This document shows positions 1 to 25,348 of a DNA stretch of 34,525 nucleotides, piece by piece. Origin of the DNA: a virus; IMG/VR virus record IMGVR_UViG_3300048839_001865, positions 1 to 34,525 of that record; one strand, 5' to 3'. The first letter of the stretch is position 1; each line of letters opens with the position of its first letter. The notes beneath the pieces were generated by a model, which saw only the letters and a program-made list of their open reading frames with translations, did no database searches and was not told where the DNA came from. The position numbers and the translations under genes were made by a program.

Positions 1-1392
1 AATCAACTTGATCGCTGTGCCCCCGCCTGCACCATGCCCTTGGTTAGCGTCGTTGTTCCCCGCGCCGCCGCCGCCCGTCACGAAGACCCAGGCGTAAAGC
101 AGGCCCGACGGCTTGGTGTAGGTGCCGGAAGACGTGAACACCTGCGTGGACATGGCGATACCGCCGCCTCCCGCCAGGGCGGCGATGGCTTCGGCCGTGC
201 GCAGCGGCGTCATGGCCTTGCTGTTCTCGGTTCCGGCCTCCGCTTCCGCTTGCGACGCGACGGCCCGTTGCAGGGCGGCAATGGCTTCGGCCGTGCGCAG
301 CGGCGTCATGGCCGTTGCGTTGTCGGAACCGGCTTCCGCCTGAGCCTGGGAGGCGACGGGCACGTCCAGCGTGCGGGTCTCGTCGCCCCCCCCGTTCTGC
401 GTGGAAAGCGAGGCCAGCCCCGATGCCAGGAGCTTTCCTTCCAGGTAGCCGGGGGTGGTGTCGTCGGCGGAGATCTTGATTTTTGTCAAGTCGGAATGGG
501 TGTGGTCTCCGGCCGCGACGGTTCCGGTAATCGACCCAACATTCTTGGTCGCGCTGTCGCCGAGCACGACGCCATCCGCCAGTATCTTCCCGGACCCGTC
601 CGCGAAGACCGGCACCGCGCCAGCCGTCGAGGAGGCTGGACCAAGAACGTCGCCAGCCCCGATGCCGTCTGCTCCCTTGGCTGCCAGCGGGTCCCAGTAG
701 GCATTGTCGGATGGTGGCTGGTTGGTGTGGTCCTGCACGCAAATCCACGACGATCCGCCGTAGCTCACGGCATCGTTGACGGCGTAGGCCGTGCCGCTGT
801 CCCATGCGGCACGCCAAGTCAATCCGGCAGGTCCAGTATCTCCAGCGCCTCCGGTAGCGCCGGCAATGCCACGCGGCCCCGTCGTCTCGAAAAGCCAGGA
901 TGCGATGGTCCCGGCGCCGCCCGTCACTTGGACATCGATCGCCAGCGTCGTGCCGGAATAGGATATCACCTGCCCCCACATCCAATTGGCCGGATCGCCG
1001 GCGTCGGTCGCTTGCACGAACAGGCCGGCCGTGAACTGCCGATCTCCCTCAACGGTGAAGGTCTTGGCGCCCGTGCCGATAGATACCGAGGATAGGGATG
1101 TGGCGGAGAAGCCGCCCGGCGCCCGGATGATCCCGGTTTCATGGTCCGGGACCGTAAGACCCGACACTACTGCGATCACCGGCACCTCAATGTAGACCGG
1201 CTGCTTGAACTTTCCCTGCGAGTCCAGTGTCTGCGGGTTTGGCAGGGCCTGGCTTCCGGTCGGCTGGGCGTAGAGGTCGGCGAGAGTGCCAGTCTTGGCG
1301 CCCGTGATCGGATCGACCGTGTAGAACGACACGGTCGATCCGACATAGATGTCGTTCGCCAGCGAAAAGTCTAGAATGGCGGTACGGGGCAT
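1..1392 (-). CDS. tail fibre / tail spike-like protein, 3' end cut by window edge
   Basis: Reading leftward from ATG at 1392, an open frame of 464 codons runs off the left edge, so the C-terminus is missing. The N-terminal 140 residues look like a virion attachment domain. Next comes a short Gly-rich collagen-like piece (GPRGIAGATGGAGDTG, near residues 175-190), then a segment with an aromatic carbohydrate-binding look (Trp/Tyr spacing, DHTNQPP). Two 32-residue tail-fibre repeats follow (AMTPLRTAEAIAAL twice, DNA copies at 181-218 and 277-314), then a Gly-rich segment (VTGGGGAGNND) typical of tail fibre ends. It starts 2 nt after the stop of the gp4-like gene, so the two are translationally coupled. 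Role inferred: receptor binding by the tail. A 14-bp inverted repeat lies in its first 30 codons. Confidence 0.85.
   Translation of the reverse strand, partial: MPRTAILDFSLANDIYVGSTVSFYTVDPITGAKTGTLADLYAQPTGSQALPNPQTLDSQGKFKQPVYIEVPVIAVVSGLTVPDHETGIIRAPGGFSATSLSSVSIGTGAKTFTVEGDRQFTAGLFVQATDAGDPANWMWGQVISYSGTTLAIDVQVTGGAGTIASWLFETTGPRGIAGATGGAGDTGPAGLTWRAAWDSGTAYAVNDAVSYGGSSWICVQDHTNQPPSDNAYWDPLAAKGADGIGAGDVLGPASSTAGAVPVFADGSGKILADGVVLGDSATKNVGSITGTVAAGDHTHSDLTKIKISADDTTPGYLEGKLLASGLASLSTQNGGGDETRTLDVPVASQAQAEAGSDNATAMTPLRTAEAIAALQRAVASQAEAEAGTENSKAMTPLRTAEAIAALAGGGGIAMSTQVFTSSGTYTKPSGLLYAWVFVTGGGGAGNNDANQGHGAGGGTAIKLI
1308..1343. repeat. perfect 14-bp inverted repeat in tail fibre gene
   Basis: TCGGATCGACCGTG at 1308-1321 is exactly complementary to 1330-1343, with an 8-nt loop. 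It lies in codons 17-28 of the tail fibre gene and would form a strong hairpin in its mRNA or a dyad in DNA. Confidence 0.8.
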
Positions 1393-1394
1393 TG

Positions 1395-2108
1395 TCAGAA
1401 GTCCCTGAACTCGGTTATCTGCGGCAGTCCGGCATGCTCGCGATTTTCGACTGCCAGCAGCTTGCGCCGGGCCTCGGTCGCGATGGCCTTGAAGTCGACG
1501 ATCTCGCTGCGCGGCAGTCGCCGAACCGCTCCCCCGCCGATATGCGAAGCGAGTTCATAGACCGCCCATATCTGCCATGCCGCCCGCAGTCCGGTCGCCT
1601 TGACGCCATTCCCCTTGGCGAAGTCCTCGCCGTAGGTTTGCGCGACTAGCTTGATCGACCATGTTCCGTCCGCGACATCGGCGCCGAGGACCGGCCAAAT
1701 GCTCAAGGTGGGCTGCCCGAGACGGTCGACGTAGACATGCGACGGCGTTCCGGTGTCGGGCCCCAGGGCCTCGAACTCGCGCCGCCGCAGCATCGTGAGC
1801 GGCGTCCTGTTTCCGGCGCCATCGGCCAGCGCGGCAGATGTCGGGAACTCGATGCCGTTCCTGGGGGCCGGAGACAAATCGTCCAGCAGATTGTAAACGG
1901 ACTTTCCTGCCGCAAGCGGCAAGGTCAGAGTGTCGGGGACCAGCCACAGAACGCGCTCCGTCCCCGACAACTCGCCGACGACCAGGTCGAGCCAGTGCAG
2001 GGCTTCCCGCATCTCCTCCGCGTCGGCCTGGGAATCCACCAGCGAGTAGGCGCCGATCAGGCGCAGAGCTCGTTCGCAGATTTCCCGCGCGGAGAGCAGG
2101 GTGCTCAT
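1395..2108 (-). CDS. P22 gp4-like head-tail connector (tail accessory factor)
   Basis: A 237-residue protein. The start MSTLLSAREICERALRLIGA and the Trp/Leu-rich helical body (residues 40-75) resemble P22 gp4-type tail accessory/packaged-DNA stabilisation proteins, usually 160-240 residues. In that family the protein binds below the portal ring and closes the head after packaging. ATG at 2108 follows GGGGGAGG at a good distance. It lies between a small unknown gene and the tail fibre, the usual place for a connector. No catalytic motif is expected. The assignment rests on sequence pattern and position; other head-completion families are possible. Confidence 0.75.
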   Translation of the reverse strand: MSTLLSAREICERALRLIGAYSLVDSQADAEEMREALHWLDLVVGELSGTERVLWLVPDTLTLPLAAGKSVYNLLDDLSPAPRNGIEFPTSAALADGAGNRTPLTMLRRREFEALGPDTGTPSHVYVDRLGQPTLSIWPVLGADVADGTWSIKLVAQTYGEDFAKGNGVKATGLRAAWQIWAVYELASHIGGGAVRRLPRSEIVDFKAIATEARRKLLAVENREHAGLPQITEFRDF

Positions 2109-2133
2109 GCCGGCCTCCCCCGTGCTTTGCCGC

Positions 2134-2685
2134 TCAGTCGCCCGACTCGTCGTCGTCCGGGATCATGACGGCCAAAGCCTTGTCGCCCATGGCGCCGCCG
2201 ACCAGATCGCCGCCGGGAATGGCATCCATCTCGTCGACGCGGGAGCTCGGCGCGCCCGTGCCGGTCTTGGCTCGGGAGCGGGCCAGGAAGGAGATCAGCT
2301 TCTCCTTGGGCGTGCCCTTCTTGATATCCTCCGCGCCCTGCATCTGCTTGGAGCGGATGAACAGGGCTTCCTGGGTCAGCTCGTCGAGCTTCGCCACCAC
2401 CTCGTCGCTGGCGAGCGCGAACGCGGCGCCGCTATGGATATCCGGCTGGGGCGGGGTCGGGTCGTACTTCTTGCCGGTGCGCGGGTCGGTGACCACGAAC
2501 GCATCGTCCTTGAGAAAGCGGAGGGCCACGTCGATCGGCAGGAGCTGAGGCTGCCCGATCTCGAAGGTGACCTGACGGATGACGCCGCTGACCATGATGT
2601 CGTGGGTGCGCCGAGGATAGGTGGGCGAGCAGGTGGTGTCGGTGACCTCCAGATATTCGCGGTCGTCGGTGGTCATTTCGGTCAT
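2134..2685 (-). CDS. hypothetical phage protein in head operon
   Basis: A 183-residue, mixed-charge protein that I do not recognise. The start at ATG 2685 is chosen because a clear GGAGG lies 7-9 nt upstream; the open frame continues much further upstream only as a shadow of the neighbouring gene. The C-terminus is acidic (PDDDESGD) and the middle contains a Lys/Glu-rich helix (DIKKGTPKEKLISFLARSR). No signal peptide or membrane segment. It sits between the putative head protein at 2754-3482 and the connector gene, so a role in head assembly or as a minor virion protein is plausible but unproven. Confidence 0.7.
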   Translation of the reverse strand: MTEMTTDDREYLEVTDTTCSPTYPRRTHDIMVSGVIRQVTFEIGQPQLLPIDVALRFLKDDAFVVTDPRTGKKYDPTPPQPDIHSGAAFALASDEVVAKLDELTQEALFIRSKQMQGAEDIKKGTPKEKLISFLARSRAKTGTGAPSSRVDEMDAIPGGDLVGGAMGDKALAVMIPDDDESGD

Positions 2686-2711
2686 CTGAGTTCCTCCAAA
2701 TGAGAGAAGGT

Positions 2712-2742
2712 GGGGCCGGGCCTTACACGCCCGGCCCCTTTT
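2712..2742 (+). terminator. terminator-like hairpin, T-run on plus strand
   Basis: GGGGCCGGGC (2712-2721) and GCCCGGCCCC (2729-2738) form a 10-bp stem with a 7-nt loop, followed by TTTT (2739-2742) on the plus strand. The genes here run leftward, where the same stem is preceded by A's and lacks a T-run. It could therefore stop antisense transcription, or act as a partial attenuator or RNA-stability element after the highly expressed coat genes. Confidence 0.6.
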
Positions 2743-2753
2743 GCGGTCTTTGG

Positions 2754-3482
2754 TTACGCCGTCAGCAGGTAGGGCAACACCAGGAAGCCCTCGGCCGTAT
2801 CGCTGCCGGCCGAGAGGGTGTAAGTGATGCTGGTCGCGTTGGAGCCGGTCACCACATGCTGCTCGTGGGTCAGGTCGCCGGCGTTGGCAGAGTCCTGCAC
2901 CTCGAACAGGGCGCCCAGGGTGTTGGCGCCGTTGGCGATGGTGGCCTTCGCCAAGCCGGCCGTGGCGACGGAGACCCCGGCGGCGAAGCCGTCGGCATCG
3001 CCGGCCGTCTCGGACGACAGCAGACCGATGTCGATGGTCTCGGTGGCGTCCACCGCCGTCACGCGTACCATCGGATTGGGCTGCACGGCGGCGTGGAGCG
3101 GCATGTCGAAGCCGGTATCCGTCTCCGTGGCGGCCATGGTGTCGTCGATGCTGAACGGGATCACGGCGACCTGGTGGCGCTGGCCGGTGTCGATGTTGAT
3201 CTCGTTCGGGCCGCCGGGCGCCACGCCCGGGTAGGTCACGAACTGGCCGCCCGGCGCCATGATGTAGAGGTCGACGCTGTTCACGTCGGCGTCCACCTGG
3301 AACGACATGCGGCCGTTGCTCAGGGCGACCGGGTTGGCGAGGGCCGCGCCGTCCATGTCGTACAGGGTCTCCTTGGCGGGGCTGCCGGTCTGGGCGACGT
3401 ATACCTTGCCGCCGGACGCTTGGATCAACTCGCCGCTGCGGTGATCCCGCAACTGGATCGAGTAAGCCTTCTTGAAGGCCAT
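2754..3482 (-). CDS. putative virion structural protein downstream of coat gene
   Basis: A 242-residue protein, beta-rich and low in Cys, with many short Ala/Gly/Thr stretches. It begins with a short basic strand (MAFKKAYSIQLRDH) followed by a region that could be a small beta-barrel (residues 10-110), then an Ala/Thr-rich C-terminal domain that ends in hydrophobic residues. I recognise no named family with certainty. The composition and position directly after the major coat gene suggest a head decoration protein, head fibre or other capsid accessory protein. ATG at 3482 has GAGAGGAG about 10 nt upstream. The stop is followed by a strong hairpin before the next gene. Confidence 0.7.
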   Translation of the reverse strand: MAFKKAYSIQLRDHRSGELIQASGGKVYVAQTGSPAKETLYDMDGAALANPVALSNGRMSFQVDADVNSVDLYIMAPGGQFVTYPGVAPGGPNEINIDTGQRHQVAVIPFSIDDTMAATETDTGFDMPLHAAVQPNPMVRVTAVDATETIDIGLLSSETAGDADGFAAGVSVATAGLAKATIANGANTLGALFEVQDSANAGDLTHEQHVVTGSNATSITYTLSAGSDTAEGFLVLPYLLTA

Positions 3483-3562
3483 GGCTCATCACTCCTCTCG
3501 AAAAGGGGGAACCCCGCCGGGTACGTTGCGGGAGTCGATCCCGGCGCCCCGGCAGCTTCCGG

Positions 3563-4681
3563 TTACAGGGCCGCGGCGGTCTTCACCGAAACGACCCCGA
3601 AGTCCTCGCGGGCATTGTCGTTGCTGGGCGACTTGAACTGAGGCTTCAGGATGCCGACCTTGCGACCGACGCCGATGCCGGGGCGGTTGCCGTAGTCGGT
3701 CTCGCCCGTCTTCTCGCGCCAGAAGGTGTTGCCCAGCGTGGCGAAGCCGAGGGCTTGCGCCCCCAGCAGCAGCGCCTGGGCGCCGTCCACCAGCCCGCCC
3801 GCGCCCCACTTGGAGCCAGAGGCGAGGCCCAACGAGTTGAACACCTTGCGGTGCTCATAGATGACCACGCCCTGAACCACCGCGATGGCGTTGGTGAACA
3901 GCGGGTTGGTCGAGCCCCGCTCGGCGGCCCGCGACACGATGGTCTGGTAGGTGGAGTCCAGCAGCAGATCGCGGACCTGCTCCGGCGACAGCACCATCAC
4001 GTAGTAGTCCTTGCCGCGGTCGCGGATCGGCCGCACGCCGTTGCGCACGGCGTACTGGCGGGCATTGACGATTACCGACCAGGACATCTTGTCGGACGCG
4101 GTGAGCGTCGCTTCCGAGGTGGCGGCCCCGGCATACTTGATGCGGTTGGTGCTCGCCGCCTTTACATCGGCCGCGAACTTCAACTGCGTAAGCTGGGTGG
4201 TTCCGCGCACGGCGCCGTTGGTCTTCAGGGTGTAGGCCCGGCCGGAGCCGGTCAGGAACATCAACTCGTCCAGCTTGTTCGGCATCCAGAAGCCGAGACG
4301 TTCCTTGGCCTCGGCCCGGAAGCGGACGACGGTCGCCTGCTCGGCCATTTCGCCCTTGGAGACGACGCCGTTGCGGATCATGTCCACCTTGATCACCTGG
4401 GCGTCGTTCTGCAACGACTCTTCGTTGCCGGCCAGGAGGTTGTCGCCGGCCACGCCGTCGGACTCCAGGTCGAGCACGAGTTGCATCACGCATTCCAGGC
4501 CGCCCTTGCCGTTCTCGGACAACTCGGTGATGCGGTGGATCGGGCGGTTGAAGTCGGCCTGGGATTCGCCGATGAAGCCGTTGGCGAACCAGAACGACTG
4601 GTCACGGAAAGTCTTCCAAATCTCGCCCGCCCACGAGCGGGTGCGGGCGATGTCCAGAGCGCCGAAGTCGGTCGCAGACAT
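3563..4681 (-). CDS. major capsid protein, N4-gp56 family
   Basis: A 372-residue protein with the pattern of the N4-gp56/DUF4043 coat family: conserved N-terminal part (ARTRSWAGEIWKTFRDQSFW), a central segment with YYVMVLSPEQVRDLL, and the C-terminal ALLLGAQALGFATLG with GETDYGNRPGIGVGRKVGI. The length fits the family (about 350-420). It should form the icosahedral shell with an HK97-like fold. ATG 4681 is chosen because AAAGGA lies about 9 nt upstream and the family begins here; the longer upstream frame overlaps the scaffold gene. It follows the scaffold candidate by 23 nt, the usual order in P22- and N4-like phages. Confidence 0.88.
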   Translation of the reverse strand: MSATDFGALDIARTRSWAGEIWKTFRDQSFWFANGFIGESQADFNRPIHRITELSENGKGGLECVMQLVLDLESDGVAGDNLLAGNEESLQNDAQVIKVDMIRNGVVSKGEMAEQATVVRFRAEAKERLGFWMPNKLDELMFLTGSGRAYTLKTNGAVRGTTQLTQLKFAADVKAASTNRIKYAGAATSEATLTASDKMSWSVIVNARQYAVRNGVRPIRDRGKDYYVMVLSPEQVRDLLLDSTYQTIVSRAAERGSTNPLFTNAIAVVQGVVIYEHRKVFNSLGLASGSKWGAGGLVDGAQALLLGAQALGFATLGNTFWREKTGETDYGNRPGIGVGRKVGILKPQFKSPSNDNAREDFGVVSVKTAAAL

Positions 4682-4704
4682 GGTGGTTGGTCCTTTCGTG
4701 GTTC

Positions 4705-5859
4705 CTATCGGAACCTGGCGCGGACGTGGTCGGGCAGGGCGGCGAACTGGTCGTCGGAGAGACTGGCGATCTTCTCCGGCGTCCACTCGTCGCCGATGCC
4801 CTTGGCCGTGCCGAGGTTGCCGATGTTGGGGGGATGCTGCCGCTGGACCTCCATCTTCGCGAGGCGATCCTGGGCGGCGGGGCTCATCGGGCCGGAACCG
4901 CCGGCCTGCGGGGAAGACGAGGAACCGACCTTGGCGGCGGCTGCCTCCGGGAACCACACCTTGGCGTATCTGTCGGCCGTGCGCGCCAGGTACTCGCGGT
5001 ACAGGGCATCCGCCTGGGCCCCGGAGATACCGGGGTGGTCATTGAGAAGAGCCGCCTTGGCCTCCGCCTGCACCATGGCGCGCCGGGTGTCCATCAGGCT
5101 ACGGACCTTCAGGTCCGCCTCCGGCTGGACCGGAAACACCATCTGCGCCGCCGGATGCTGCTCGTACAGGCTCTGTGCCTGCCGCTCGGCTTCCAGTTGC
5201 CGCTTCACCTCCTCCACCGTGGACTCCGCGTTCGGCTGGCCGTGCTGCGGAAACTTGGCCCGCAGGGTCTCCTCGCGGACGGCCGCCTCACGACCTCGCA
5301 GATCGCGCGACAGCCGGGTAAAATCGGCCAGGGTGATCTCGCCCTCGTCATACTTCTTGGCGAGGGCGTCTTCCTCGGCCGCCAGGGCCGCCAGTTTGTC
5401 GTCGATGGCGGGTTCCTTGGGCTGCTCCTTGGGAGAAGCGGCTTCCGGCATTGCCTCCCCGCGGGCCTGCGCGACTCCGCGCCAATAGGCGGCCTCCTGT
5501 TCGGCCCGTTGCTTGGCCGTCAGGGCCTCGTCGAGGCGAGGCTTGGGGATCATCGGCGGCTTGTCGGACCTTTCCTCGGCGGGCTGGGCCTCGGTCTTGA
5601 TCGGCGGCTCGTCTCCGTCCTTGGACTCGGTTTTCGGCGGAATGTCCTGGCCGGCCAGCTTGACGGCCCCGAGTTCGGCCTGCGCCCGGTAGAAGTCCTG
5701 CATGTCCGGGTCGGCGACCTTGGACAGGTCGATCTCCGGAACGGCGGGGGGGTCCTGGGGTACCGGCGTGGTCTCGGGGGCGGTCGGCTGGGCGGTGGTG
5801 GGTTCGGTGATGGCGGCGGTGGCGGAATTGCCAGCGCCGACGGCGGTGTCGTCGGTCAT
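4705..5859 (-). CDS. putative scaffolding protein
   Basis: A 384-residue, Pro/Ala/Glu/Lys-rich protein with little hydrophobic core. The N-terminal 100 residues are acidic and disordered, the middle (about 115-260) is rich in long charged helices likely to be coiled coils (LAALAAEEDALAKKYDEG), and the C-terminus is small and mixed (NIGNLGTAKGIGDEWTPEKI). This composition and the place between portal and coat genes are typical of internal scaffolding proteins, which direct coat assembly and leave the shell. Sequence in such proteins is poorly conserved, so the call rests on composition and order. ATG 5859 is chosen because GGAGAGG is about 6 nt upstream; starts at 5865, 5874 and 5886 are possible. 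Confidence 0.7.
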   Translation of the reverse strand: MTDDTAVGAGNSATAAITEPTTAQPTAPETTPVPQDPPAVPEIDLSKVADPDMQDFYRAQAELGAVKLAGQDIPPKTESKDGDEPPIKTEAQPAEERSDKPPMIPKPRLDEALTAKQRAEQEAAYWRGVAQARGEAMPEAASPKEQPKEPAIDDKLAALAAEEDALAKKYDEGEITLADFTRLSRDLRGREAAVREETLRAKFPQHGQPNAESTVEEVKRQLEAERQAQSLYEQHPAAQMVFPVQPEADLKVRSLMDTRRAMVQAEAKAALLNDHPGISGAQADALYREYLARTADRYAKVWFPEAAAAKVGSSSSPQAGGSGPMSPAAQDRLAKMEVQRQHPPNIGNLGTAKGIGDEWTPEKIASLSDDQFAALPDHVRARFR

Positions 5860-5976
5860 CGTCATCCTCTCCATATCGCTGAGCATGCGGGAACGCCCGT
5901 CATCCCCCGGCGGCGGGGCGCCGATGCCCTCGGCGGAGGGGCCGCTATCGCGCGGCCAGGCGGAAATCTTGGTTGG

Positions 5977-6507
5977 TCAGTTGGCCTGCGAGGGAGCGCA
6001 CTCGCCGAGCGCCCGGCGGTAGACCTCGCCCTCGCGCAGATCGAGCGCGGCATGCTGGCGGCGCCACTGCTGCCAAGCCTGCTCGGCGCTTTCCATCCAG
6101 TGATCGGGCCCGGCCAGCAGCACCTCGGTGAAATCGTCGCTGCATTCGACCGGGAACTGCACGTCGCCGTCCCGGTCCATCCACAGGAACACGAACCGGC
6201 CGAAGTCCACCGGCGCACCGATGATCGGCAGGGCGGCGAAGGTGGTGGCCGGATGGGTAAACAGCACCAGCCAGGCGCCGTCATGGTGCAGGCGGCGGTT
6301 GAGCGCCAACGCCATGTCGTTGGCGAACATCTGCTGCTCCGGCACGGGCACAGGATGGGCGGGTGCGCTGCGGAACGGCACCAGCAAGCCGCCCTGACGC
6401 ACGGCAATGCCCCAATAGATGCCCGTCCCGCCCTCGAATCTGGCCTCGGCGGCAAGTCGCGCCAGCAGGGCCGGCGTCGCGAGAATGCGGTCGTCGATAT
6501 CGCGCAT
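5977..6507 (-). CDS. hypothetical protein between portal and scaffold
   Basis: A 176-residue soluble protein that I do not recognise. It is Trp-rich (IYWGIAV, DHWMESAEQAWQQWRR) with a mixed alpha/beta look and a segment VNTHPATTFAALPIIGAP-like in character near the centre (actual residues around 85-100 read LVLFTHPATTFAALP). ATG 6507 lies 8 nt after the portal stop, with AGAGG about 10 nt upstream, so it belongs to the packaging operon. About 117 nt of apparently noncoding, GC-rich sequence separate its stop from the scaffold-gene start. The conserved place suggests a head-assembly or virion role, but nothing in the sequence shows it. Confidence 0.7.
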   Translation of the reverse strand: MRDIDDRILATPALLARLAAEARFEGGTGIYWGIAVRQGGLLVPFRSAPAHPVPVPEQQMFANDMALALNRRLHHDGAWLVLFTHPATTFAALPIIGAPVDFGRFVFLWMDRDGDVQFPVECSDDFTEVLLAGPDHWMESAEQAWQQWRRQHAALDLREGEVYRRALGECAPSQAN

Positions 6508-6515
6508 GGTCTGCT

Positions 6516-8543
6516 CTACCTCTTGGGCAGGGGAACGACGTTTCCGGTGGCGCCCGGATCTTCCTGGGCCTGTGGGGGCACGGCCACGGCGGAAGGGCCT
6601 CCGCCGCCTACCGGGCCGACCGCCATCGCCTGTCCGATGCCGGTGACCTGCTGGAAGCGCTGCTTCCACTCCTCCTTGCGGGGCAGGGATGACAGGTCGA
6701 TCAGCAGGTCGGCGTAGAACTGGGGCGCCAGAGCCCCGCCCATCTTCTCCATCAGGGCCATGGCCTCCTCGAACTGGGCGTTGAGGAAGGAGGCGGAAAG
6801 CGGCGTCTCGTCGATGTTGACGGTGTACTTGCCGACCGTGATGTCCCGGATGCGGCCCACCAGGGTGCCGGTCATGGGGTCGACTTGGCGCTGGTTGACC
6901 TCGAACTGCACCAGCTTGCCGTCCTCTCCCAGGATGCGGAAGATCCTGGGCTCCGTGTAGTGACGCTGGATCAGGCTCAGCATGTGCCGGCCTTGCAACT
7001 CCTTCGACCGGGAGAAGTTGTCGAAATAGAGCTGCAACGATAGCACCGCTTGGCGCTGCCGCGCTTCGATGGCGCGACCCGACTGCACCCGGTCCAATTC
7101 GCCCAGCGCGCTCTCGTTGATGCCGCTGATCTGCCGAAGGTCGTCGGTCGACCGTTCCTCCAGACGCTCCATCGCCATGGGCGGCGGTGCCGGGTTGATG
7201 CGCTCCGGCTTTTGGGCCGGCTCGCCCTTCCACTTGATGTTGACCCCAGGCGTCGAACCAAAGCGCTTGATGTTCTCTTCCTGGTCCACATCCAGGCTGC
7301 TCTCGTGGTACATCCAGCCGGCATTGGCGGTCTTGCCGACGATCTCGATCTGGGCCGAACGGCGCTTGTTGATCTCGCGCTGCGGGTCCAGCATGTCCTC
7401 GACCATGCCTCGGGTGATTCCCCTCCGGAAGTAGGGAAAGAACCCGGTCTTGGTGTACCGGTCGTAAGGGCTCCAGTTGTCGTGGACCAGGACATCGCCG
7501 ACCATCACGGTCCAGCGGACGCGCTCCACCGGGCGGATGTCGAGCGCCACCGGGTTGCCGACCTGCTGAGCGTGCAGCATGGCCTTCTCGATCCAGTGCC
7601 GTTCGGCCGTCGCCGCATCCAGGTCCGGATACATGGCGGCAAACTCGGACTCGTTGGGCACCGGCACTTTGTCGCCGGTCTCCAGGTCGATCAGCACCTT
7701 GCCCCAGACGGTCTTGCGGTGCTGCATGTCGAGCACGCGGACCATCTTGCGGGTCGGGTCGATCAGTTCGGAGTGGAAGAAATCGCGCCAAGTCTGCTCG
7801 CCGATGCGCTCCTCCTGGGCGAACCCGCGAACCGGCGCCACCTCGGTGGCCGCGAGGTCCATGTAGGGATAGCCGCCCCAGCTCTGCCCGGCAAATCCAG
7901 CCATGGGCTCGACCAGGCGGCGGGCCTCGGGGCCGTAGGTGAACTCGATCTCGTCCGGGCTCGCCCAGCGGCTTTCGGCGATGTAGGCGGCCTGGGCAAG
8001 GTCGTAGTCCTGAAGATCGGGATCGACGAACACGGTGAAGGGGTCGCAGGCCTCGGCCCTGACCTCTCCCATGTCGTTGTCCTCGAACCGGAGCCGCATG
8101 TCCCAGAACCCGCGCCCGGTGATGACGCCGTCCAGGAATACCTCGGCATCGACCCAGCGGAGTTGCGAGGCCTCGCCGATCTGCTTGGCGATCATCGACA
8201 GAGCTTCGGCCACCTCCTCGTTGGCGCCGGCGTCGGAGGCCGCGAGAAACTTGATGTCGGTGCGGTTATTGCGCATGTAGCCGGTGACGAGCCGGACCAG
8301 GGGCGCGATCTTGTTGAAGACCAGGGCGGGGCGCTTTTCGGATGCCAGCTTCCGCAGCTGATCTTCCGTCCACTGGCGCCCTTCGACGAAGTCGACGCAG
8401 GTCTTGGCGACCTCGGCCCATTTGGTCTGGGCGCATGCGGCCCGGTACCAGCGCTCGGCGACCAGGCGCACGGTCCTGGCATCCTGGGCCGGCATCCGCC
8501 GTGCCGGCAGCAGCAGCGGGGAGTCCGCCACGGGTCGCAGCAT
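6516..8543 (-). CDS. portal protein, P22 gp1-like
   Basis: A 675-residue protein of the P22-type portal family (P22 gp1 is 725). Recognisable pieces are YMRNNRTDIKF near residue 90, ITGRGFWDMRLRFEDNDMGE, the DPFTVFVDPDLQDYDL segment, and the late helical region AQFEEAMALMEKMGGALAP. A ring of twelve subunits would form the DNA channel at one capsid vertex and dock the terminase. The start at ATG 8543 follows GGAGG by 9 nt; the longer open frame upstream overlaps the large terminase region. It follows the large terminase by 32 nt, the canonical order of packaging genes. Confidence 0.85.
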   Translation of the reverse strand: MLRPVADSPLLLPARRMPAQDARTVRLVAERWYRAACAQTKWAEVAKTCVDFVEGRQWTEDQLRKLASEKRPALVFNKIAPLVRLVTGYMRNNRTDIKFLAASDAGANEEVAEALSMIAKQIGEASQLRWVDAEVFLDGVITGRGFWDMRLRFEDNDMGEVRAEACDPFTVFVDPDLQDYDLAQAAYIAESRWASPDEIEFTYGPEARRLVEPMAGFAGQSWGGYPYMDLAATEVAPVRGFAQEERIGEQTWRDFFHSELIDPTRKMVRVLDMQHRKTVWGKVLIDLETGDKVPVPNESEFAAMYPDLDAATAERHWIEKAMLHAQQVGNPVALDIRPVERVRWTVMVGDVLVHDNWSPYDRYTKTGFFPYFRRGITRGMVEDMLDPQREINKRRSAQIEIVGKTANAGWMYHESSLDVDQEENIKRFGSTPGVNIKWKGEPAQKPERINPAPPPMAMERLEERSTDDLRQISGINESALGELDRVQSGRAIEARQRQAVLSLQLYFDNFSRSKELQGRHMLSLIQRHYTEPRIFRILGEDGKLVQFEVNQRQVDPMTGTLVGRIRDITVGKYTVNIDETPLSASFLNAQFEEAMALMEKMGGALAPQFYADLLIDLSSLPRKEEWKQRFQQVTGIGQAMAVGPVGGGGPSAVAVPPQAQEDPGATGNVVPLPKR

Positions 8544-8575
8544 CTGCGTCGGTCCTCCTCGGCTACGGTTGAGAA

Positions 8576-10183
8576 TCAGGCTGTCTGCCAGTCGTGGCGA
8601 CCGGAGGCGGCATCGGCCATCGCCTCGCGGACCCAATCCGGGACCTTCTCCGGCGGTTCCTTCGGCCATTCGGCCTGCATCTCGTCGTCCAGGATGCGCG
8701 CCAAGCAATCCAGCATGTCGTCATGGCGACAGACCGGGAAGGTCAGGTACTCCTCATCGACGAACAGCCGGGTGGCATCGTAGGCGGCGCCCTCCCAGTC
8801 CTGGTGCATGCAAGTCCGGGGCAACCAGACCAGCCCGTTCTCGCAAAGCGGCACAAGCCTCCGGATGCGGTCTGGTTTCGGGACCCGTCCGGCCAGGGTG
8901 ACGATCTCGAAGGGATAGTTCTTCCCCTCCTGCTCGACACCGATGTGATGCACGTCGGCGGCGAGCCCGTATTCCTCGTAGCCCACCCGGATCGGCTTCC
9001 ATTTCCGGTGCATCTCGAACAGACGGCGAATGCGCTCGGTCGGGTTAAGTCTGTCGCGGACCATGTCAAGCACGCGGTAATGACCGCTGGCCGTCAGACC
9101 GATCGCGATCATGCTGGTGTAGTCGTTGTCGACCCCCCGCTCGGCCCGGCGCTTGCCGCTGGACGGATCGACCAGCAGGTAGACGTTCATGCCGGCGGCG
9201 CTGGCTGCATCCCAGTAGCGCAGCCACTCCTCGCGGAAGCCCTGCGCCTTGTCCGCGGTGGGGTTCTGGAGCATCTGGGCGGCGAAGGTGTAGACGCCCT
9301 GCGCCCGCCGCTTGGCGACCAGGGTCTCAGGCTTCATCAAGACGCAGTTGTCGGGCTCGAACCGCTCGATGCCGTCCCTGGTGCAGGTGTGGATGCGCGG
9401 CACGGCGACCTTGCGGTCCATCATCGTCTTGTAGGTGTCGTGGGCGTGGTAGCGGGTACCTATGGTGCGCACCCACCCGTCCTCGGAGCCCAGGTTGTCG
9501 GACAGTTCCCAAGCCTCGGTGGTCTTCTTGATCTGCTCGGGCGTGTAGACCGATTCCCGGGTCACCACGTCGTCGTAGACCCGGACGAAGAAGTGCTTTC
9601 CGGTCGGCTGACCGTCCACCAATCCCCAAGCCTCGACGGTGGATTCCTTCGGGTTCGTCTTGCGCCGGACGATGATTCCGCCGTCTTCGGACCACTTGGG
9701 GGCCTCGCTCTCCGGCTTGGCCCAAAGCACGTCCGGAAACAGGGCTTTCAGGTCCTCGTTGTCCTCGAACTCGCGCTTGATCTGGATCAGGAATCCTTTG
9801 GCGATGGGCCGCGTGTGGCTGAAGATGCCGACGGTGATCTCCCGGCCGGCGTAGCGCTCCTCTGGCCCATCGCCATGGCTCGCCAGGATATCCTGGATCG
9901 TCAGACCCCAGGTAATGATGGTCGACTTGTAGTGTTCTCGCGCCCACAGGTCCAAATGTCCGTTGGGCTCCCCCTGCACCTCGCGACAGCGGGCGAAAAT
10001 CCAGTCCCGGTTCATGTCCTTGCGGTGCAGGGGCACCGTCAGGAGGTAGAACAGGTCATTGCGACACAGCCAGCGCCGCGCCTGGCGCAATGCCTCCGGA
10101 CCCTTCTCCGCCGCCTTGCCCAACAGGACCCGGTAGAAGCGAATGGACTCGCGGCGCGAGCTCGGAAGACCGGCGGGAAGCAT
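8576..10183 (-). CDS. terL: terminase large subunit (ATPase and nuclease)
   Basis: A 535-residue DNA-packaging motor. The ATPase domain has a deviant Walker A, AREHYKST (residues 81-88), and a Walker B with acidic pair in FVRVYDDVV (D204, D205). The C-terminal RNase H-like nuclease has LLVDPSSGK (D339), VGYEEYG (E403/E404) and RHDDMLDCL (D488/D489), the three expected acidic positions. It cuts concatemeric DNA and pumps it through the portal. The ATG at 10183 overlaps the small-terminase stop in TGATG, with a GGAGGAG just upstream; a GTG one codon earlier is possible. No frameshift or missing motif was seen. Confidence 0.92.
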   Translation of the reverse strand: MLPAGLPSSRRESIRFYRVLLGKAAEKGPEALRQARRWLCRNDLFYLLTVPLHRKDMNRDWIFARCREVQGEPNGHLDLWAREHYKSTIITWGLTIQDILASHGDGPEERYAGREITVGIFSHTRPIAKGFLIQIKREFEDNEDLKALFPDVLWAKPESEAPKWSEDGGIIVRRKTNPKESTVEAWGLVDGQPTGKHFFVRVYDDVVTRESVYTPEQIKKTTEAWELSDNLGSEDGWVRTIGTRYHAHDTYKTMMDRKVAVPRIHTCTRDGIERFEPDNCVLMKPETLVAKRRAQGVYTFAAQMLQNPTADKAQGFREEWLRYWDAASAAGMNVYLLVDPSSGKRRAERGVDNDYTSMIAIGLTASGHYRVLDMVRDRLNPTERIRRLFEMHRKWKPIRVGYEEYGLAADVHHIGVEQEGKNYPFEIVTLAGRVPKPDRIRRLVPLCENGLVWLPRTCMHQDWEGAAYDATRLFVDEEYLTFPVCRHDDMLDCLARILDDEMQAEWPKEPPEKVPDWVREAMADAASGRHDWQTA

Positions 10184-10689
10184 CACTCCTCCTCGGCCAG
10201 CGCCCCCAGGGCCTCCTTCATGGCCTCGTCCACGTTCCAGGCGTGGCGATGCTCGACAGGCCCGCCCTCTGCCCCGGTGACGGCGACGGCGCCCTCGACC
10301 TTGCGGCGCCCCTCGTAGGTGCCGCTTGCCTCCTTGGCCGCCTGTTCGATGATATTCGCTTCCAGGACCACGTTACCATTGTCGCGGGCCCGGTCGGCGA
10401 TCCTTTGCAGCCGGCGCAGGCGGTGCGTTCGGTGGGCGATGGGAATGTCCGCCTCGCTGGTCAGGTAGGTGTCCCGCGCCCGATGGAACAGCATCCTGTA
10501 CTTCTCCGGCAGGTCGGCCCCGGCCAGCTTGTTCGGGTCGTAGCGCTCGACGCCCTGCGCCGATATTTCGACCCCGAAATTATCCTTGACCAGCTTGGCA
10601 ACATCGCTGGGCGGCTCGAAGGCGGCGAGCTGCGCGATCACGAAGAGTTTCGCCTCCTCGGTCAGCTTTCCCTTGCCGCGCCGGGCCAT
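10183..10689 (-). CDS. DUF2280 protein, probable terminase small subunit
   Basis: A 168-residue protein matching the DUF2280 pattern: basic N-terminus, LAAFEPPSDVAKLVKDNFGV (HTH-like helices, residues 21-40), the GVERYDPNKLAG segment, IPIAHRTHRLRRLQRIADRA, and a helix leading to EQAAKEASG. Members of this family usually lie directly upstream of terL and are taken as small terminase subunits that recognise the packaging site. It overlaps terL (TGATG) at one end and the metallopeptidase gene (TGATG) at the other, so the three are translationally coupled. The acidic tail LGALAEEE is probably where it meets TerL. Packaging role is inferred from family and order. Confidence 0.82.
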   Translation of the reverse strand: MARRGKGKLTEEAKLFVIAQLAAFEPPSDVAKLVKDNFGVEISAQGVERYDPNKLAGADLPEKYRMLFHRARDTYLTSEADIPIAHRTHRLRRLQRIADRARDNGNVVLEANIIEQAAKEASGTYEGRRKVEGAVAVTGAEGGPVEHRHAWNVDEAMKEALGALAEEE

Positions 10690-11351
10690 CAAGCCACCTT
10701 CAGGGCACAGCAACCGCCCCCGCAAGCCCTGGCGATGGCTGTGTCCGACACCTCGCACGGCCTGGCGGCGGCAATCACGAGGTCAATGGTTTCGCCAGCG
10801 CCGGCCTCGACACCGAACCGGCGCACGGTGGCGACGAACTCTTCCACGTCGTGACCTTTGATGCCGAGGGTGGGCTTTCCGGTTTCGCGATTGAACTTGG
10901 GCTCCCCGAATTCGTCGGCCTCCTGGACGCAGTGGCGCAACTCGTGATCGACCAGCGCGCACCAGACGCGATCCGACGCCTCGGCAACGTAAAGGGCATC
11001 GAAAGTCAGGATGAAATCCGGGATGCCGCCGAAGAAGCCGTGCATCTGCTGTTCCCAGCGTCCCTTGATCCACCCGTTCGCGCCCTGGGGCGGGCGGGGC
11101 TTCTCGGCCATCCCGACTTTGCGCTGTCCCTTGACGATCAGCGAGACATTGGTCCAGAGGCAGCCGAGCGTCGCTTCGTTCAGATGGGCATGGCCAGGAT
11201 CGAACAGGGGCCCGTCCTCGGCAAGGAACACGGCCTTGATCCAGTCCTCCAGCGCGGCATCCCTTTCGAACATCGGCCCGGCCAGGGCGCCCGGCATGGA
11301 CGAAAGACGCTCGAGCGGCATCGGCCGTCTATGGAGCGGGATAACTGGCAT
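10689..11351 (-). CDS. putative phage metallopeptidase (HELRH)
   Basis: A 220-residue protein with a zincin signature, VDHELRHC: H136, E137 and H140 fit HExxH. This matches the 'putative phage metallopeptidase' family found at the head of several packaging operons. Other features are FGGIPDFILTFDALYV before the motif and a Cys-rich tail (CGGGCC). The substrate is unknown; capsid-protein processing or a non-catalytic DNA-binding role are both possible. It is the first gene after the late promoter. ATG 11351 has only a distant AGGA; internal Met codons 11 and 19 are alternatives. Its stop overlaps the DUF2280 start. Confidence 0.72.
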   Translation of the reverse strand: MPVIPLHRRPMPLERLSSMPGALAGPMFERDAALEDWIKAVFLAEDGPLFDPGHAHLNEATLGCLWTNVSLIVKGQRKVGMAEKPRPPQGANGWIKGRWEQQMHGFFGGIPDFILTFDALYVAEASDRVWCALVDHELRHCVQEADEFGEPKFNRETGKPTLGIKGHDVEEFVATVRRFGVEAGAGETIDLVIAAARPCEVSDTAIARACGGGCCALKVA

Positions 11352-11390
11352 GAGGCTGAGATCCTGGTCGGTATGCGCCGAACTTCGCGC

Positions 11391-11408
11391 CGCGGCCCGC
11401 GGGCCGCG
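11391..11408. repeat. 18-bp perfect palindrome in late leader
   Basis: CGCGGCCCGCGGGCCGCG is self-complementary and lies roughly 60-75 nt into the predicted late transcript. As RNA it forms a very stable GC hairpin with a 4-nt loop. There is no T-run, so it is not a simple terminator; a pause or processing site is possible. Confidence 0.7.
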
Positions 11409-11412
11409 CTTC

Positions 11413-11427
11413 GCAACAGGCTGTTAC
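11413..11427. promoter_or_regulatory. operator-like palindrome O1 (late leader)
   Basis: GCAACAGGCTGTTAC matches the phage-wide palindrome GTAACAASTTGTTAC at 12 of 15 positions. It lies about 40-50 nt downstream of the predicted late transcription start. Confidence 0.55.
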
Positions 11428-11471
11428 ATTCGTTGGTGGAAAGACCCGGAGACACGTCGACGAGTCTGCCT

Positions 11472-11502
11472 ATAGTACCCCACTTTCCGCCCCGCGTGTC
11501 AA
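11472..11502 (-). promoter_or_regulatory. predicted late promoter, 19-bp spacer
   Basis: On the minus strand a perfect TTGACA (11502-11497) is followed after 19 bp by TACTAT (11477-11472). Start of transcription would be near 11465, about 110 nt before the metallopeptidase ATG. The long spacer is suboptimal for a sigma-70-type promoter and suggests dependence on an activator. Palindromes O1, O2 and O3 flank it. A GAGTC (GANTC) sits at the predicted start point. Confidence 0.6.
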
Positions 11503-11553
11503 TAGCACATGGCCTGATGCTGTGGGTTCTCGTGCGCGCACCAACGAGATATG

Positions 11554-11568
11554 GTAACATTATGTTAC
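11554..11568. promoter_or_regulatory. operator-like palindrome O2 (upstream of late promoter)
   Basis: GTAACATTATGTTAC is a perfect palindrome around its central base and matches the shared consensus except near the centre. Its centre lies about 60 bp upstream of the late -35. Confidence 0.65.
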
Positions 11569-11608
11569 GTGGCGGCTGTTGTGCGGCGTCATGTTGGCGG
11601 ACGTCGGC

Positions 11609-11623
11609 CTAACAAGGTGTTGC
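11609..11623. promoter_or_regulatory. operator-like palindrome O3 (weak)
   Basis: CTAACAAGGTGTTGC matches the consensus at 12 of 15 positions. It lies 55 bp from O2, between O2 and the stop of the 257-residue gene. Confidence 0.4.
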
Positions 11624-11640
11624 CTCTCCGCGTCTACGCC

Positions 11641-12414
11641 TCATGACTTTCTCCTCCGTCCAGCGCGGATCATTCTCGTTTCCCGCAGAAATGCTTGGGA
11701 TTGCCGGCCCTCATCGTGGTCAGCCCGGATATCGGCGTAAAGGTCGAGGCCGGCGCGGAGGAAGGCGACCGCCTTCGTCCAACCCAGGCGGTGCCGCCGG
11801 CGGGCCGTGTCCAGGGAGATGCCGTCGCGGACCACCATGAGGACCAGCTGAAGATGATTCCGGTTCTGCTGTCCAGCAGCCAGCATCTCGGCGATCCAAG
11901 GCAGGTAGCGATGCGCATGCCAATCCGCCAGGAAGGCCGGCATGAAATCGCCAGCCGGGCCGACGCCTCCTCCGCTCCGGATCACCGGCATACAACGGGC
12001 ATGCTGGGCGGCCGTCACGGCCTCCAGGATGGTGGCGATCTCGACGGCGGCGCGGTGATGGCGATGATCGATCGTTCCCCGCTCGACCAGGAAAATCAGC
12101 GCGTCGTCGCGACCCGGCTTCAGGGTCGCCTCTGGCGTCGGGCCGTCGTCGTCGCGGTTGGCAAGCAGGTTGACGTGCCGGTAATTCTGCATCAGGGCCT
12201 CGATCCTGGCGGCGGAAAGGAATTGCCTCTCGGCTAGGCGTCGCAGATCGGAGGCATCCCGGCCGGATGCCTCCCGCTGGGATATCCGCTTGACCAGCTC
12301 GCGTCCGGCCAGGAGATGGCGGTCCCGGTGCCGCGCCGCTAGGTCGAAGGAATCGGGCTTGCGCAGGTCGAAGGCGGCGCGGATGACCGCCAGAACACCG
12401 TGAATGTCGCTCAT
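11641..12414 (-). CDS. hypothetical last gene of left early operon; possible late regulator
   Basis: A 257-residue, Arg/Ala-rich, mostly helical protein that I do not recognise. The C-terminal third contains WIAEMLAAGQQNRNHLQLVL followed by a helix-turn-helix-like stretch, ISLDTARRRHRLGWTKAVAF (about residues 200-230). It is the last gene of the left early operon and stops about 140 nt upstream of the late -35, the position of late regulators such as lambda Q. That role is an inference from position plus the HTH-like segment only. ATG 12414 overlaps the previous stop in ATGA; the longer frame upstream is a shadow of that gene. Confidence 0.68.
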   Translation of the reverse strand: MSDIHGVLAVIRAAFDLRKPDSFDLAARHRDRHLLAGRELVKRISQREASGRDASDLRRLAERQFLSAARIEALMQNYRHVNLLANRDDDGPTPEATLKPGRDDALIFLVERGTIDHRHHRAAVEIATILEAVTAAQHARCMPVIRSGGGVGPAGDFMPAFLADWHAHRYLPWIAEMLAAGQQNRNHLQLVLMVVRDGISLDTARRRHRLGWTKAVAFLRAGLDLYADIRADHDEGRQSQAFLRETRMIRAGRRRKS

Positions 12415-16786: not shown

Positions 16787-17319
16787 TTGATCCTCCTCCG
16801 GCCCCCTTGCCTTGGTGGTTCCGGCGGCCGGTGCGGTAAGGAGGGAACCCGCACCGGGGATGCGCATCCCCTGCCGCCGGAAATCGTCACGGCCCCCAGA
16901 TCGGCAGGGGATTGCAGGGCCACATGCCCTTTCAGGAAGGCGTGCCGCCGAACGCCCCATTCCCCGAGGATGCAGTCCACCTCGTCGACGGATCGGCAGA
17001 GTGCCCATCGGGCGCCCTGAGCCGTGGCTTGGTCGCGGAACCGCCGTTGCTCGGGCGACAGGGAGCCGTCCTTGGCCTTCAGTTCGATGAAACCGGCCTT
17101 TCCGTCGGGCAGGATCAGACAGATGTCCGGCACGCCCGGCCGGGTGCCCATGGCCTTCAGCTTGCCGGCGGCGGCCTTGCCGCGCTTTTCCCCGCTCGGG
17201 CAATGCCACCAGAGACATTCCTCGTCCTTGAGGGCGATCCGCAGGAAATGGGCGACCGTCCGGTGCAGGCGCTCTTCCGGGTTGTCGCGGCGCAACGACG
17301 ATGAAGAAGCGTCCAGCAT
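16747..17319 (-). CDS. VRR-NUC domain nuclease
   Basis: A 190-residue protein of the PD-(D/E)XK superfamily. The core is GVPDICLILPDGKAGFIELK (about residues 62-81), with the catalytic D and E-x-K, then LSPEQRRFRDQATAQG as the following helix. Stand-alone phage VRR-NUC proteins are structure-specific nucleases that cut branched DNA such as Holliday junctions, and replace RusA-like resolvases. The last 45 residues (PPEPPRQGGRRRIKWTT) are basic and probably flexible. ATG 17319 overlaps the Cro-like stop in TAATG and has GGGAGGG about 6 nt upstream. It is the second gene from the left early promoter. Confidence 0.85.
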   Translation of the reverse strand: MLDASSSSLRRDNPEERLHRTVAHFLRIALKDEECLWWHCPSGEKRGKAAAGKLKAMGTRPGVPDICLILPDGKAGFIELKAKDGSLSPEQRRFRDQATAQGARWALCRSVDEVDCILGEWGVRRHAFLKGHVALQSPADLGAVTISGGRGCASPVRVPSLPHRPPEPPRQGGRRRIKWTTRTKGMERLS

Positions 17320-17624
17320 TATTCCCTCCCTCCCGTCAGGAAAGTCGGCGCGCTGCCTCCATCATCGTTGGCTGCCCCCTTCGGTTCGAAGGCGTGCCGT
17401 CGGCGGTGGCAGGGAAGCAGGAAGCCGGCCGGCACGGCGACGCCCTTGCGAAGGGCGATGGCGGCAACCGTCTGCCGCATGTCAGGCGGCACCCCGCGCT
17501 TGCGCCAGTTCGGGATCGCGCGCTGGCTGAAAGCGCCGGCGGCCAAGTGCAGTTCCACCTCGATCTCGCGGGCGAGGGCGGTGGGGCCGCCCAGGTCGGT
17601 GATCAGCTTGTCGTGAGTCTCCAA
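17319..17624 (-). CDS. Cro-like HTH regulator, TTG start
   Basis: A 101-residue protein, first gene of the left early operon. The fold pattern is Cro/YdaS-like: LITDLGGPTALAREIEV as helices 1-2, RAIPNWRKRGVPPDMRQTVA as turn and recognition helix, then ALRKGVAVPAGFLLP. The C-terminus is disordered. The start is TTG 17624, chosen because AGGAGG lies exactly 6 nt upstream; the next in-frame codons give no better site. Its promoter holds the perfect operator O4. Role inferred: the Cro-type antagonist of the repressor at 17776, or an activator of early genes. Note that the operator is palindromic, as expected for a Cro/repressor pair. Confidence 0.8.
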   Translation of the reverse strand: METHDKLITDLGGPTALAREIEVELHLAAGAFSQRAIPNWRKRGVPPDMRQTVAAIALRKGVAVPAGFLLPCHRRRHAFEPKGAANDDGGSAPTFLTGGRE

Positions 17625-17651: not shown

Positions 17652-17679
17652 ACTGTAACAAGTTGTTACTGCATGTCAA
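17652..17679 (-). promoter_or_regulatory. left early promoter (PL)
   Basis: TTGACA (17679-17674) is followed after 16 bp by TACAGT (17657-17652) on the minus strand. Start of transcription is expected near 17645, about 20 nt before the ribosome site of the Cro-like gene. The perfect palindrome O4 fills the spacer and overlaps the -10 by 3 bp. Confidence 0.75.
17655..17669. promoter_or_regulatory. operator O4 in PL, perfect palindrome
   Basis: GTAACAAGTTGTTAC is a perfect odd palindrome and the best copy of the shared motif. Bound protein would cover the PL spacer and -10. Confidence 0.78.
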
Positions 17680-17775: not shown

Positions 17776-18057
17776 ATGGACCGCGACAAGCTTGCCCGCC
17801 GCAAGAAGGCACTCCGGGAATTCGGTGCCAGGCTGAAAGCCTGCCGCATCGCGGCCGGGTACGAATCGGCACGCGATTTCGTAAAGTCCTTCCCAGAGTC
17901 CGTGGGTCTCGAAGAGCCCGCCTACCGGCGGTACGAGCGGGGCGAGGTGTTGCCGGACGCCTATGTCCTCCCCCTCATCGCCGGTAAGGTCCACAAAAGC
18001 GTCGACTTCCTGCTCACCGGACGGAGTCGGCCCGCCGACCTTCCCCCGACCGACTAG
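17776..18057 (+). CDS. XRE-family repressor, small, no peptidase domain
   Basis: A 93-residue protein, nearly all one XRE domain: FGARLKACRIAAGYESARDF, GLEEPAYRRYERGEVLPDAY, then PLIAGKVHKSVDFLLTG. This is the typical small phage repressor pattern. It stands between the divergent early promoters, with operators on both sides, which makes it the likely lysogenic repressor. It has no S24 autocleavage domain, so RecA-driven self-cleavage is not expected and induction must work otherwise. ATG 17776 has AGGA 7 nt upstream; the TAGGAT there could instead be a -10 giving an almost leaderless mRNA, as for lambda cI. A GAATC (GANTC) lies at 17727. Confidence 0.8.
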   Translation: MDRDKLARRKKALREFGARLKACRIAAGYESARDFVKSFPESVGLEEPAYRRYERGEVLPDAYVLPLIAGKVHKSVDFLLTGRSRPADLPPTD

Positions 18058-18085: not shown

Positions 18086-18114
18086 TTGCGCGACGGGGAA
18101 CAACTTGTTACCTT
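18086..18114 (+). promoter_or_regulatory. right early promoter (PR), weak match
   Basis: TTGCGC (18086-18091) and TACCTT (18109-18114) are 17 bp apart. Both hexamers are weak (3 of 6), but the operator O5 has the same geometry as O4 in PL: it begins 5 bp after the -35 and overlaps the -10 by 3 bp. Confidence 0.5.
18097..18111. promoter_or_regulatory. operator O5 in PR
   Basis: GGAACAACTTGTTAC matches the consensus at 14 of 15 positions, in the PR spacer. Confidence 0.7.
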
Positions 18115-18121
18115 GAGGTGT

Positions 18122-18136
18122 GTAACAGGTTGTCAC
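18122..18136. promoter_or_regulatory. operator O6 downstream of PR
   Basis: GTAACAGGTTGTCAC matches at 13 of 15 positions. Its centre is 25 bp from that of O5, about 2.4 helical turns, close enough for pairwise binding. It covers the expected PR start region, before the gene at 18153. Confidence 0.68.
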
Positions 18137-24707: not shown

Positions 24708-25061
24708 ATGACGGAAGACAACGGAGCCCTCTGCTGTCCGCACTGTGGCGCGAAAACGAAGGTGAGAGATAGCCGGCCAGTCCCTGGCAACCGCGCAATC
24801 CGTCGGCGGCGGCGGTGCCTCAATAAGGCCTGTGGGCATAGGTTCACGACCCACGAAAGGGAAGAGGTCACCTGGACATGCACATCCTGCGCCCACTTCT
24901 GGCCGGGGAGCGACTCACGCTGCATGGCGCCGCTCCCCGCGCCCCTGGCGGTGGCGAGCTACCGGGGCGTGAAGGTGTCCCCCGACGAGGGTTCGGACTG
25001 CCGACTGCATAGCGCCGCCGGGAGTAGTGCGGCGATGGCGAGGGAGAACGTCGATGTCTGA
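24708..25061 (+). CDS. zinc-ribbon protein: NrdR/Ogr-like N-terminus
   Basis: A 117-residue protein whose first 52 residues repeat the NrdR zinc-ribbon pattern: [20 protein letters not shown], then AIRRRRRCL and [10 protein letters not shown]. Zn ligands would be C10, C13, C37 and C42. The second pair is spaced C-x4-C as in the P2 Ogr/Delta late activators, not C-x2-C as in NrdR. The ATP-cone of NrdR is absent; a second Cys set follows (C58, C61, C72). Such ribbons bind DNA or RNA polymerase, so a transcription factor is likely: a repressor of nrd genes or a late-gene activator. Start ATG 24708 follows GGGAGG. Confidence 0.75.
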
Positions 25062-25260
25062 GCTGGACCAACAGTCCCTGACCACGTCGGAATTGGCAGC
25101 GCGCTGGGAGATGTCTCCCCAGACGCTCCGGCGCTGGCGAATGAAGAAAATCGGCCCGCCTTGGTTCCGTCCGAACGGCGGCGACGCGGGCGAGGTGCGC
25201 TACCGCCTCGCCGATATCCTGGCTTGGGAAAAGGCCGCACCGAAACGTAACAAGATGTAA
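25054..25260 (+). CDS. HTH_17 / excisionase-like DNA-binding protein
   Basis: A 68-residue winged-helix protein: [20 protein letters not shown] followed by a wing ([24 protein letters not shown]). This is the MerR/Xis-like HTH_17 fold. Its start at ATG 25054 overlaps the previous stop by 8 nt; AGGGAG is upstream. It may be a directionality factor or transcription regulator; the candidate beside the integrase (33256) fits Xis better. Operator-like site O7 covers its last codons. The tail (APKRNKM) is basic. Confidence 0.74.
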
Positions 25261-25261
25261 T
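25247..25261. promoter_or_regulatory. operator-like site O7 (weak)
   Basis: GTAACAAGATGTAAT matches the shared palindrome at 12 of 15 positions, at the 3' end of the HTH_17 gene. It is 66 bp from O8, so the pair could bind cooperatively. Confidence 0.4.
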
Positions 25262-25348
25262 GCGATTGCGCATTTGCTGTTGCACAAACGGCGCGTCCCG
25301 TGCAAATATGATGAAACAAGTTGTTACTTAAATAGCGGAGCAATCCCG
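25262..25348 (+). promoter_or_regulatory. probable internal promoter region with operator O8
   Basis: An 87-bp AT-richer gap. TATGAT (25307-25312) is a fair -10, but no good -35 stands 16-18 bp upstream; TTGCAC at 25280 is 21 bp away. Operator O8 follows at once. A second rightward promoter for the DUF2303 pair is likely but not certain. Confidence 0.5.
25313..25327. promoter_or_regulatory. operator O8
   Basis: GAAACAAGTTGTTAC matches at 14 of 15 positions and lies directly before the ribosome site (GCGGAG) of the gene at 25349. Confidence 0.7.

Follow-up and report, generated by a model that had tools for sequence, protein, structure and literature searches.

Sequence comparison makes it reasonably probable that the immunity repressor of this phage silences the late operon directly, through three palindromes that enclose the late promoter: O1 would block the start, O2 and O3 would stop read-through, and the product of gene 11641 would act as the activator. 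Because O1–O3 carry the same motif as the immunity region, the best reading of these sites is that the switch protein represses the late operon.

The DNA analyzed, referred to as the window, is the IMG/VR virus record IMGVR_UViG_3300048839_001865, 34,525 bases long with a GC content of 66%. Its late operon runs leftward and, besides the genes given here, also encodes tail-like proteins:

1..11351, minus strand: late operon, with a gene order conserved in L118 and L129
10689-11351, minus strand: metallopeptidase
10183-10689, minus strand: DUF2280 protein, at the small-terminase position
8576-10129, minus strand: terminase large subunit
6516-8543, minus strand: P22-like portal
3563-4681, minus strand: capsid
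1395-2108, minus strand: SU10-type adaptor

The early operon, likewise leftward, extends from 17624 down to 11641; the immunity region lies at 17.3-18.2 kb, a rightward operon follows to its right, and an integrase gene stands at the right end of the window. The gap between the early and late operons, 11352-11640, is best explained as the late control region of a temperate phage. A scan with the capsid protein retrieved relatives with the same structural gene order, several of them about 60 kb in length, and the window is probably part of a phage of that size and kind. One of these relatives, G393, carries a 114-bp terminal repeat, and its genome is therefore regarded as complete. Single-protein scans with protein 10689, protein 17776 and the portal found no relatives. 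Terminase scans returned about 65 loci, of which only L020 and L021 share head genes, the others having the terminase alone or scattered other genes in common. Three terminase relatives (L012, L013 and L062) seem to be split by long inserts, possibly inteins.

The late control region contains a promoter candidate, three palindromes and a self-complementary stretch in the late leader:

11472..11502, minus strand: candidate late promoter, with TTGACA at 11502-11497, a 19-nt spacer CGCGGGGCGGAAAGTGGGG and TACTAT at 11477-11472
11413-11427, unstranded: O1, GCAACAGGCTGTTAC, downstream of the late promoter, centered at about +45; rank 5 in the window by matrix score
11554-11568, unstranded: O2, GTAACATTATGTTAC, a perfect dyad upstream of the late promoter, centered at about -96
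11609-11623, unstranded: O3, CTAACAAGGTGTTGC, upstream of the late promoter, centered at about -151
11391..11408, unstranded: G+C-rich self-complementary stretch in the late leader, a hairpin without a U run

Transcription is assumed to start at ~11465, and the positions +45, -96 and -151 are counted from 11465. This arrangement agrees with the initial annotation, which had placed TTGACA and TACTAT 19 bp apart, O1 (11413) downstream and O2 (11554) and O3 (11609) upstream of the promoter, and the centers of O1 and O2 (11420 and 11561) 141 bp from each other. O2 and O3 are 55 bp apart, and O1 falls just outside 11472-11623, the range which that annotation had covered.

Across the whole window, an exact TTGACA with an acceptable -10 hexamer at a spacing of 15-20 occurs at only two sites, the late promoter and the leftward early promoter PL at 17679. 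In 2 of 2000 shuffles of the 289-bp gap, the minus strand gave a perfect TTGACA at a spacing of 15-20 from its -10, with 10/12 or more positions matching overall. Judged by its hexamers alone, the promoter is not rare, with 0.26 occurrences expected per window at 2 mismatches; it is therefore the location and the exact -35 that carry weight. A sigma70 promoter with a strong -35 but a 19-bp spacer is expected to be weak without help. The late promoter is probably sigma70-like and, because its spacer measures 19 bp despite the strong -35, probably weak alone, which makes dependence on an activator plausible; switching on the late operon probably requires a late regulator. The stretch from 13000 to 10500, which spans the junction of the early and late operons, gave no intrinsic terminator, and no U run was found in the late leader, which as a whole folds no better than its shuffles.

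Matches to GYAACANNNTGTTRC with at most 2 mismatches number 12 in the window against 1.43 expected, a count reached in none of 100 shuffles. A matrix that excluded the late sites, built from only four palindromes (17655, 18097, 18122 and 25313), ranked O1, O2 and O3 directly after these four in 34.5 kb, and 0 of 3000 dinucleotide shuffles of the late gap reached the third score. O1–O3 are therefore assigned to the repressor regulon of the phage, and symmetric operator copies in the window amount to seven to eight in all. The late sites differ from the core of the immunity sites, CAASTTG, and so they may be weaker or may serve another protein, such as the Cro-like product of gene 17319. O2 was also the top match in the window of an operator matrix derived from G393 (23.8, with the next at 12.3), and it matches the G393 operators more closely than the immunity sites of the window itself do, perhaps as a leftover or because its core specificity is relaxed.

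The remaining operators lie in the immunity region and within the rightward operon:

17776..18057, plus strand: XRE-type repressor, 93 aa, helix-turn-helix (HTH) only, between the PL and PR operators
17319..17624, minus strand: Cro/YdaS-like DNA-binding protein, encoded first in the leftward early operon, with a homologue at the equivalent place in G393
17652..17679, minus strand: PL, TTGACA-16-TACAGT, with operator GTAACAAGTTGTTAC (17655-17669) in the spacer and over the -10
18097..18136, unstranded: PR operators GGAACAACTTGTTAC (18097-18111) and GTAACAGGTTGTCAC (18122-18136), 25 bp apart, before the rightward operon
25247..25327, unstranded: operator GAAACAAGTTGTTAC at 25313-25327 and, at 25247-25261, a weaker copy; both in a gap inside the rightward operon, adjoining TATGAT

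The palindromic sites over PL and PR adjoin the repressor gene, and the pair at 25247-25327 suggests another directly repressed promoter. The 93-aa XRE protein is probably the binder of all these operators, because sites that share their 15-bp frame lie on either side of its homologues in two other lineages. The Cro-like protein (17319-17624) probably shares the sites with it, and the two are not separable here. An S24 peptidase domain was not found in the repressor (17776-18057), so that induction by self-cleavage is unlikely, and no oligomerization domain was recognized in it. The first gene of the rightward operon (18153-18899) encodes near-identical repeats of ~20 aa (VRADQGATLTLPALTKAGD).

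As in lambda-type immunity, the repressor gene lies between PL and PR, palindromic operators cover the promoters and a Cro-like gene comes first in one operon; the layout departs from that type in that the repressor is a 93-aa protein without S24 and in that an operator is present at the late promoter too. To our knowledge, lambda has no repressor operator at its late promoter. In the classical view of lambda, a prophage keeps its late genes silent solely through the lack of their activator.

In the prophage state, the 93-aa XRE repressor would bind one type of 15-bp operator at the late gap, PL and PR, and would shut the late operon directly, besides the early operons. Repressor on O1, ~45 bp past the presumed start, would keep transcription from initiating or from getting beyond early elongation. 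Read-through from the early leftward operon would be halted at O2 and O3, a role proposed because no terminator was found between the early and late operons, and these two may help O1. After induction, the leftward operon would make the 11641 protein, which would in turn switch on the late promoter. We infer repressor binding, late repression, the role of 11641 and the start site from what was directly observed: the promoter sequence, the identity of the motif, the positions of the genes, the motifs flanking homologous repressors and an operator at the terminase genes of one relative. One point against direct repression is that sites located at -96 and -151 are not enough to account for it. 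The initial annotation had allowed the switch protein to repress the late operon or to activate it: repression draws support from the match of O1–O3 to the immunity motif and from the G393 site that heads the terminase genes, and nothing that we found speaks for activation.

The operator motif recurs beside homologous repressors. Apart from single-base departures, all sites fit a common 15-bp frame, RTAAC-N5-RTTAY. The G393 repressor homologue shows 38-42% identity in the HTH region, and sites occupy the PL position (GTAACGTAATGTCAC) and the PR positions (TCAACGTTATGTTAC and GTTACGTTATGATAC) of that genome, the PR pair being spaced by 23 bp as against 25 bp in the window. Repressor homologues in L099 and L100 (41-43% identity) carry ATAACTTTCAATTAC, ATAACTTTTGATTAC and similar sequences on both sides of the gene; these two loci, being closely related, are treated as a single case, and their sites were recognized by eye first and turned into a pattern afterwards. 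In both, a VRR-NUC gene precedes the repressor, as in the leftward operon of the window. A scan of viral contigs for paired palindromes returned 17 contigs, mostly with unrelated repeats, and only L078 and L081 represented a CI/Cro control region: the unrelated phage contig L078 has three copies of the same palindrome between its repressor and Cro-type genes, and L081 has two just before its Cro-type gene.

A site of this type also stands near the late genes of G393. When 19 kb of late-side DNA from G393 was scanned with a matrix made from its three immunity sites, the best match, GTATCATTACGTTAC at 247, scored 20.6 against 10.8 for the next, a value that 0 of 2000 shuffles attained. It lies 206 bp before the start of the small terminase gene at 467. 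This result supports the proposal that a repressor site heads the late genes in a second phage. Site 247 lies in a divergent gap, within the spacer of a weak leftward promoter (GTGACC-17-TATGCT, 8/12), and a clear rightward late promoter was not found there. The site fits the leftward promoter better, and conserved late repression is therefore not proven.

The candidate activator is encoded immediately upstream of the late control region:

11641..12414, minus strand: candidate late regulator of 257 aa, encoded by the last early gene, which directly precedes the late operon and runs in its direction

Neither Pfam nor PHROG offered a family for this protein (11641-12414), and its predicted structure, with a pLDDT of 53, was set aside for fold searches. 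Homologues of ~180-260 aa (including L214:6836-7594 and L094:8050-8664) occur in alphaproteobacterial prophages and in two relatives. The G389 homologue is flanked by a replication gene and the small terminase gene, on the same strand; the one in L094 precedes the terminase gene; and the one in G393 lies upstream of the terminase genes, separated from them by ~5 kb that holds other genes. Three further homologues (L092, L093 and L095) stand beside an S24 repressor. A terminase gene after the homologue in L092 and L093 was rejected, as Pfam identified the proteins as tail-collar proteins. The position just before the late genes is the usual place of Q-type or similar late regulators. Of the four activators that had been suggested (11641, 24708, 26871 and 27678), only 11641 gained support, by its position before the late genes in relatives; the other three lack comparative support.

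The other candidates were assessed by their domains. The zinc-ribbon protein at 24708-25061 matches the NrdR N-terminal and Ogr/Delta families, the protein at 26871-27506 has a winged-helix, OmpR/PhoB-type C-terminal DNA-binding domain with no match to a receiver domain, and weak HTH proteins are encoded at 16224 and 27543. Comparative support for 24708, 26871, 16224 or 27543 as late activators was not found. A possible Ogr-type site for the zinc-ribbon protein 24708, the dyad CACA-N11-TGTG at 11506-11524 and ~50 bp before the presumed start, was rejected: comparative support was absent, and the polarity of its arms is opposite to what we take to be that of the P2 Ogr site.

The position of 11641 also bears on a different and rather unlikely account, in which the protein acts as a Q-like antiterminator, loaded at the late promoter with the 19-bp spacer region as its recognition site, and passes a stop in the leader, the palindromes being secondary. 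As with lambda Q and pR', the last early gene lies directly before the late promoter and in the same direction, a placement kept in G389 and L094. In G389 (L214:6760-6840), moreover, a promoter-like TTGACG-17-TATGTT comes right after the homologue, followed within ~50 nt by a terminator-like hairpin and TTTTTTT, the order of elements seen in lambda. That hairpin may instead end the early operon, the window's own leader has no terminator or U run, and no similarity to the known Q families was found for the 11641 protein in Pfam or PHROG. A search of G389, which has the 11641 homologue, for a repeated palindrome family gave G+C-rich noise only, with no operator family, and this counts against direct repression by the immunity repressor.

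It is unlikely that the sites serve purely as roadblocks, stopping polymerase that arrives from the early leftward operon in the prophage, with the late promoter under the activator alone. The shared direction of the two operons, the lack of a detected terminator between them and the location of O1 inside the late leader all suit this possibility, and mycobacteriophage L5 offers a precedent in its stoperators, repressor sites outside the immunity region that silence other parts of the prophage (PMC6550527). L5/Cluster A stoperators, however, are asymmetric, number 20-30 per genome, are oriented with transcription and lie mostly away from promoters (PMC6550527), whereas the window has seven to eight symmetric sites, three of which flank one promoter. 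Being symmetric and few, these do not form an L5 stoperator system. In addition, PL, the source of the read-through, is itself repressed.

Quite unlikely, in our judgment, is a loop of the gal type, in which repressor bound to O1 (+45) and O2 (-96), perhaps with O3, would close 141 bp of DNA and block initiation. GalR operators in the gal operon flank the promoter, at about -60 and +53. The window shares that geometry, with operators on either side at loop-compatible distances of 141 and 55 bp. It differs in having a phage XRE repressor with no known tetramer or HU requirement and no recognized oligomerization domain, and in a separation that, at 10.5 bp per turn, amounts to a non-integral 13.4 turns. 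Looping between O1 and O2, which the initial annotation had raised, is possible, and nothing that we found supports it.

That annotation had further likened the spacing to that of promoters distorted by an activator, as MerR-type regulators do when they twist the spacer and align the hexamers. The 19-bp spacer, within the 19-20 bp typical of MerR-type promoters, next to a perfect consensus -35 is what such a promoter would show, and a small MerR-like HTH protein is encoded at 25027-25260. MerR-type promoters hold a strong palindrome inside the spacer (PMC1526738), whereas no dyad was found in the 19-nt spacer of the late promoter, where 2 of 9 positions pair. MerR-type distortion is thus not supported, and this mode of activation is very improbable. 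The least probable explanation, that promoter-like hexamers and palindromes occur here by chance and have no role, is compatible with the expected frequency of the hexamer pair and is contradicted for the palindromes by the independent matrix and its shuffles.

Direct repression of the late operon by the immunity repressor would place this phage in a known kind of system, with a somewhat unusual arrangement in which operators surround the late promoter. The prophage late genes would be under a double lock, since the late operon appears to be a direct target of the repressor, and a matching site exists in a distant relative. Only tentatively, we extend this to a temperate lineage of podovirus-like phages whose early and late operons would be controlled directly, through a shared operator, by one small immunity repressor lacking a cleavage domain, and whose operator-enclosed late promoter would be kept weak by its 19-bp spacer until a regulator of a new family, the 11641 type, acts. 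The frame RTAAC-N5-RTTAY provides a testable binding code for a repressor family without annotated specificity, and 11641 represents a candidate late-regulator family that has no name in the databases searched.

As a separate observation, another phage group carries two copies of GTAACANNNTGTTAC directly before a gene for a LexA-type DNA-binding domain, which is followed by the large terminase gene (L084:13917-14242 and L085:76-401).
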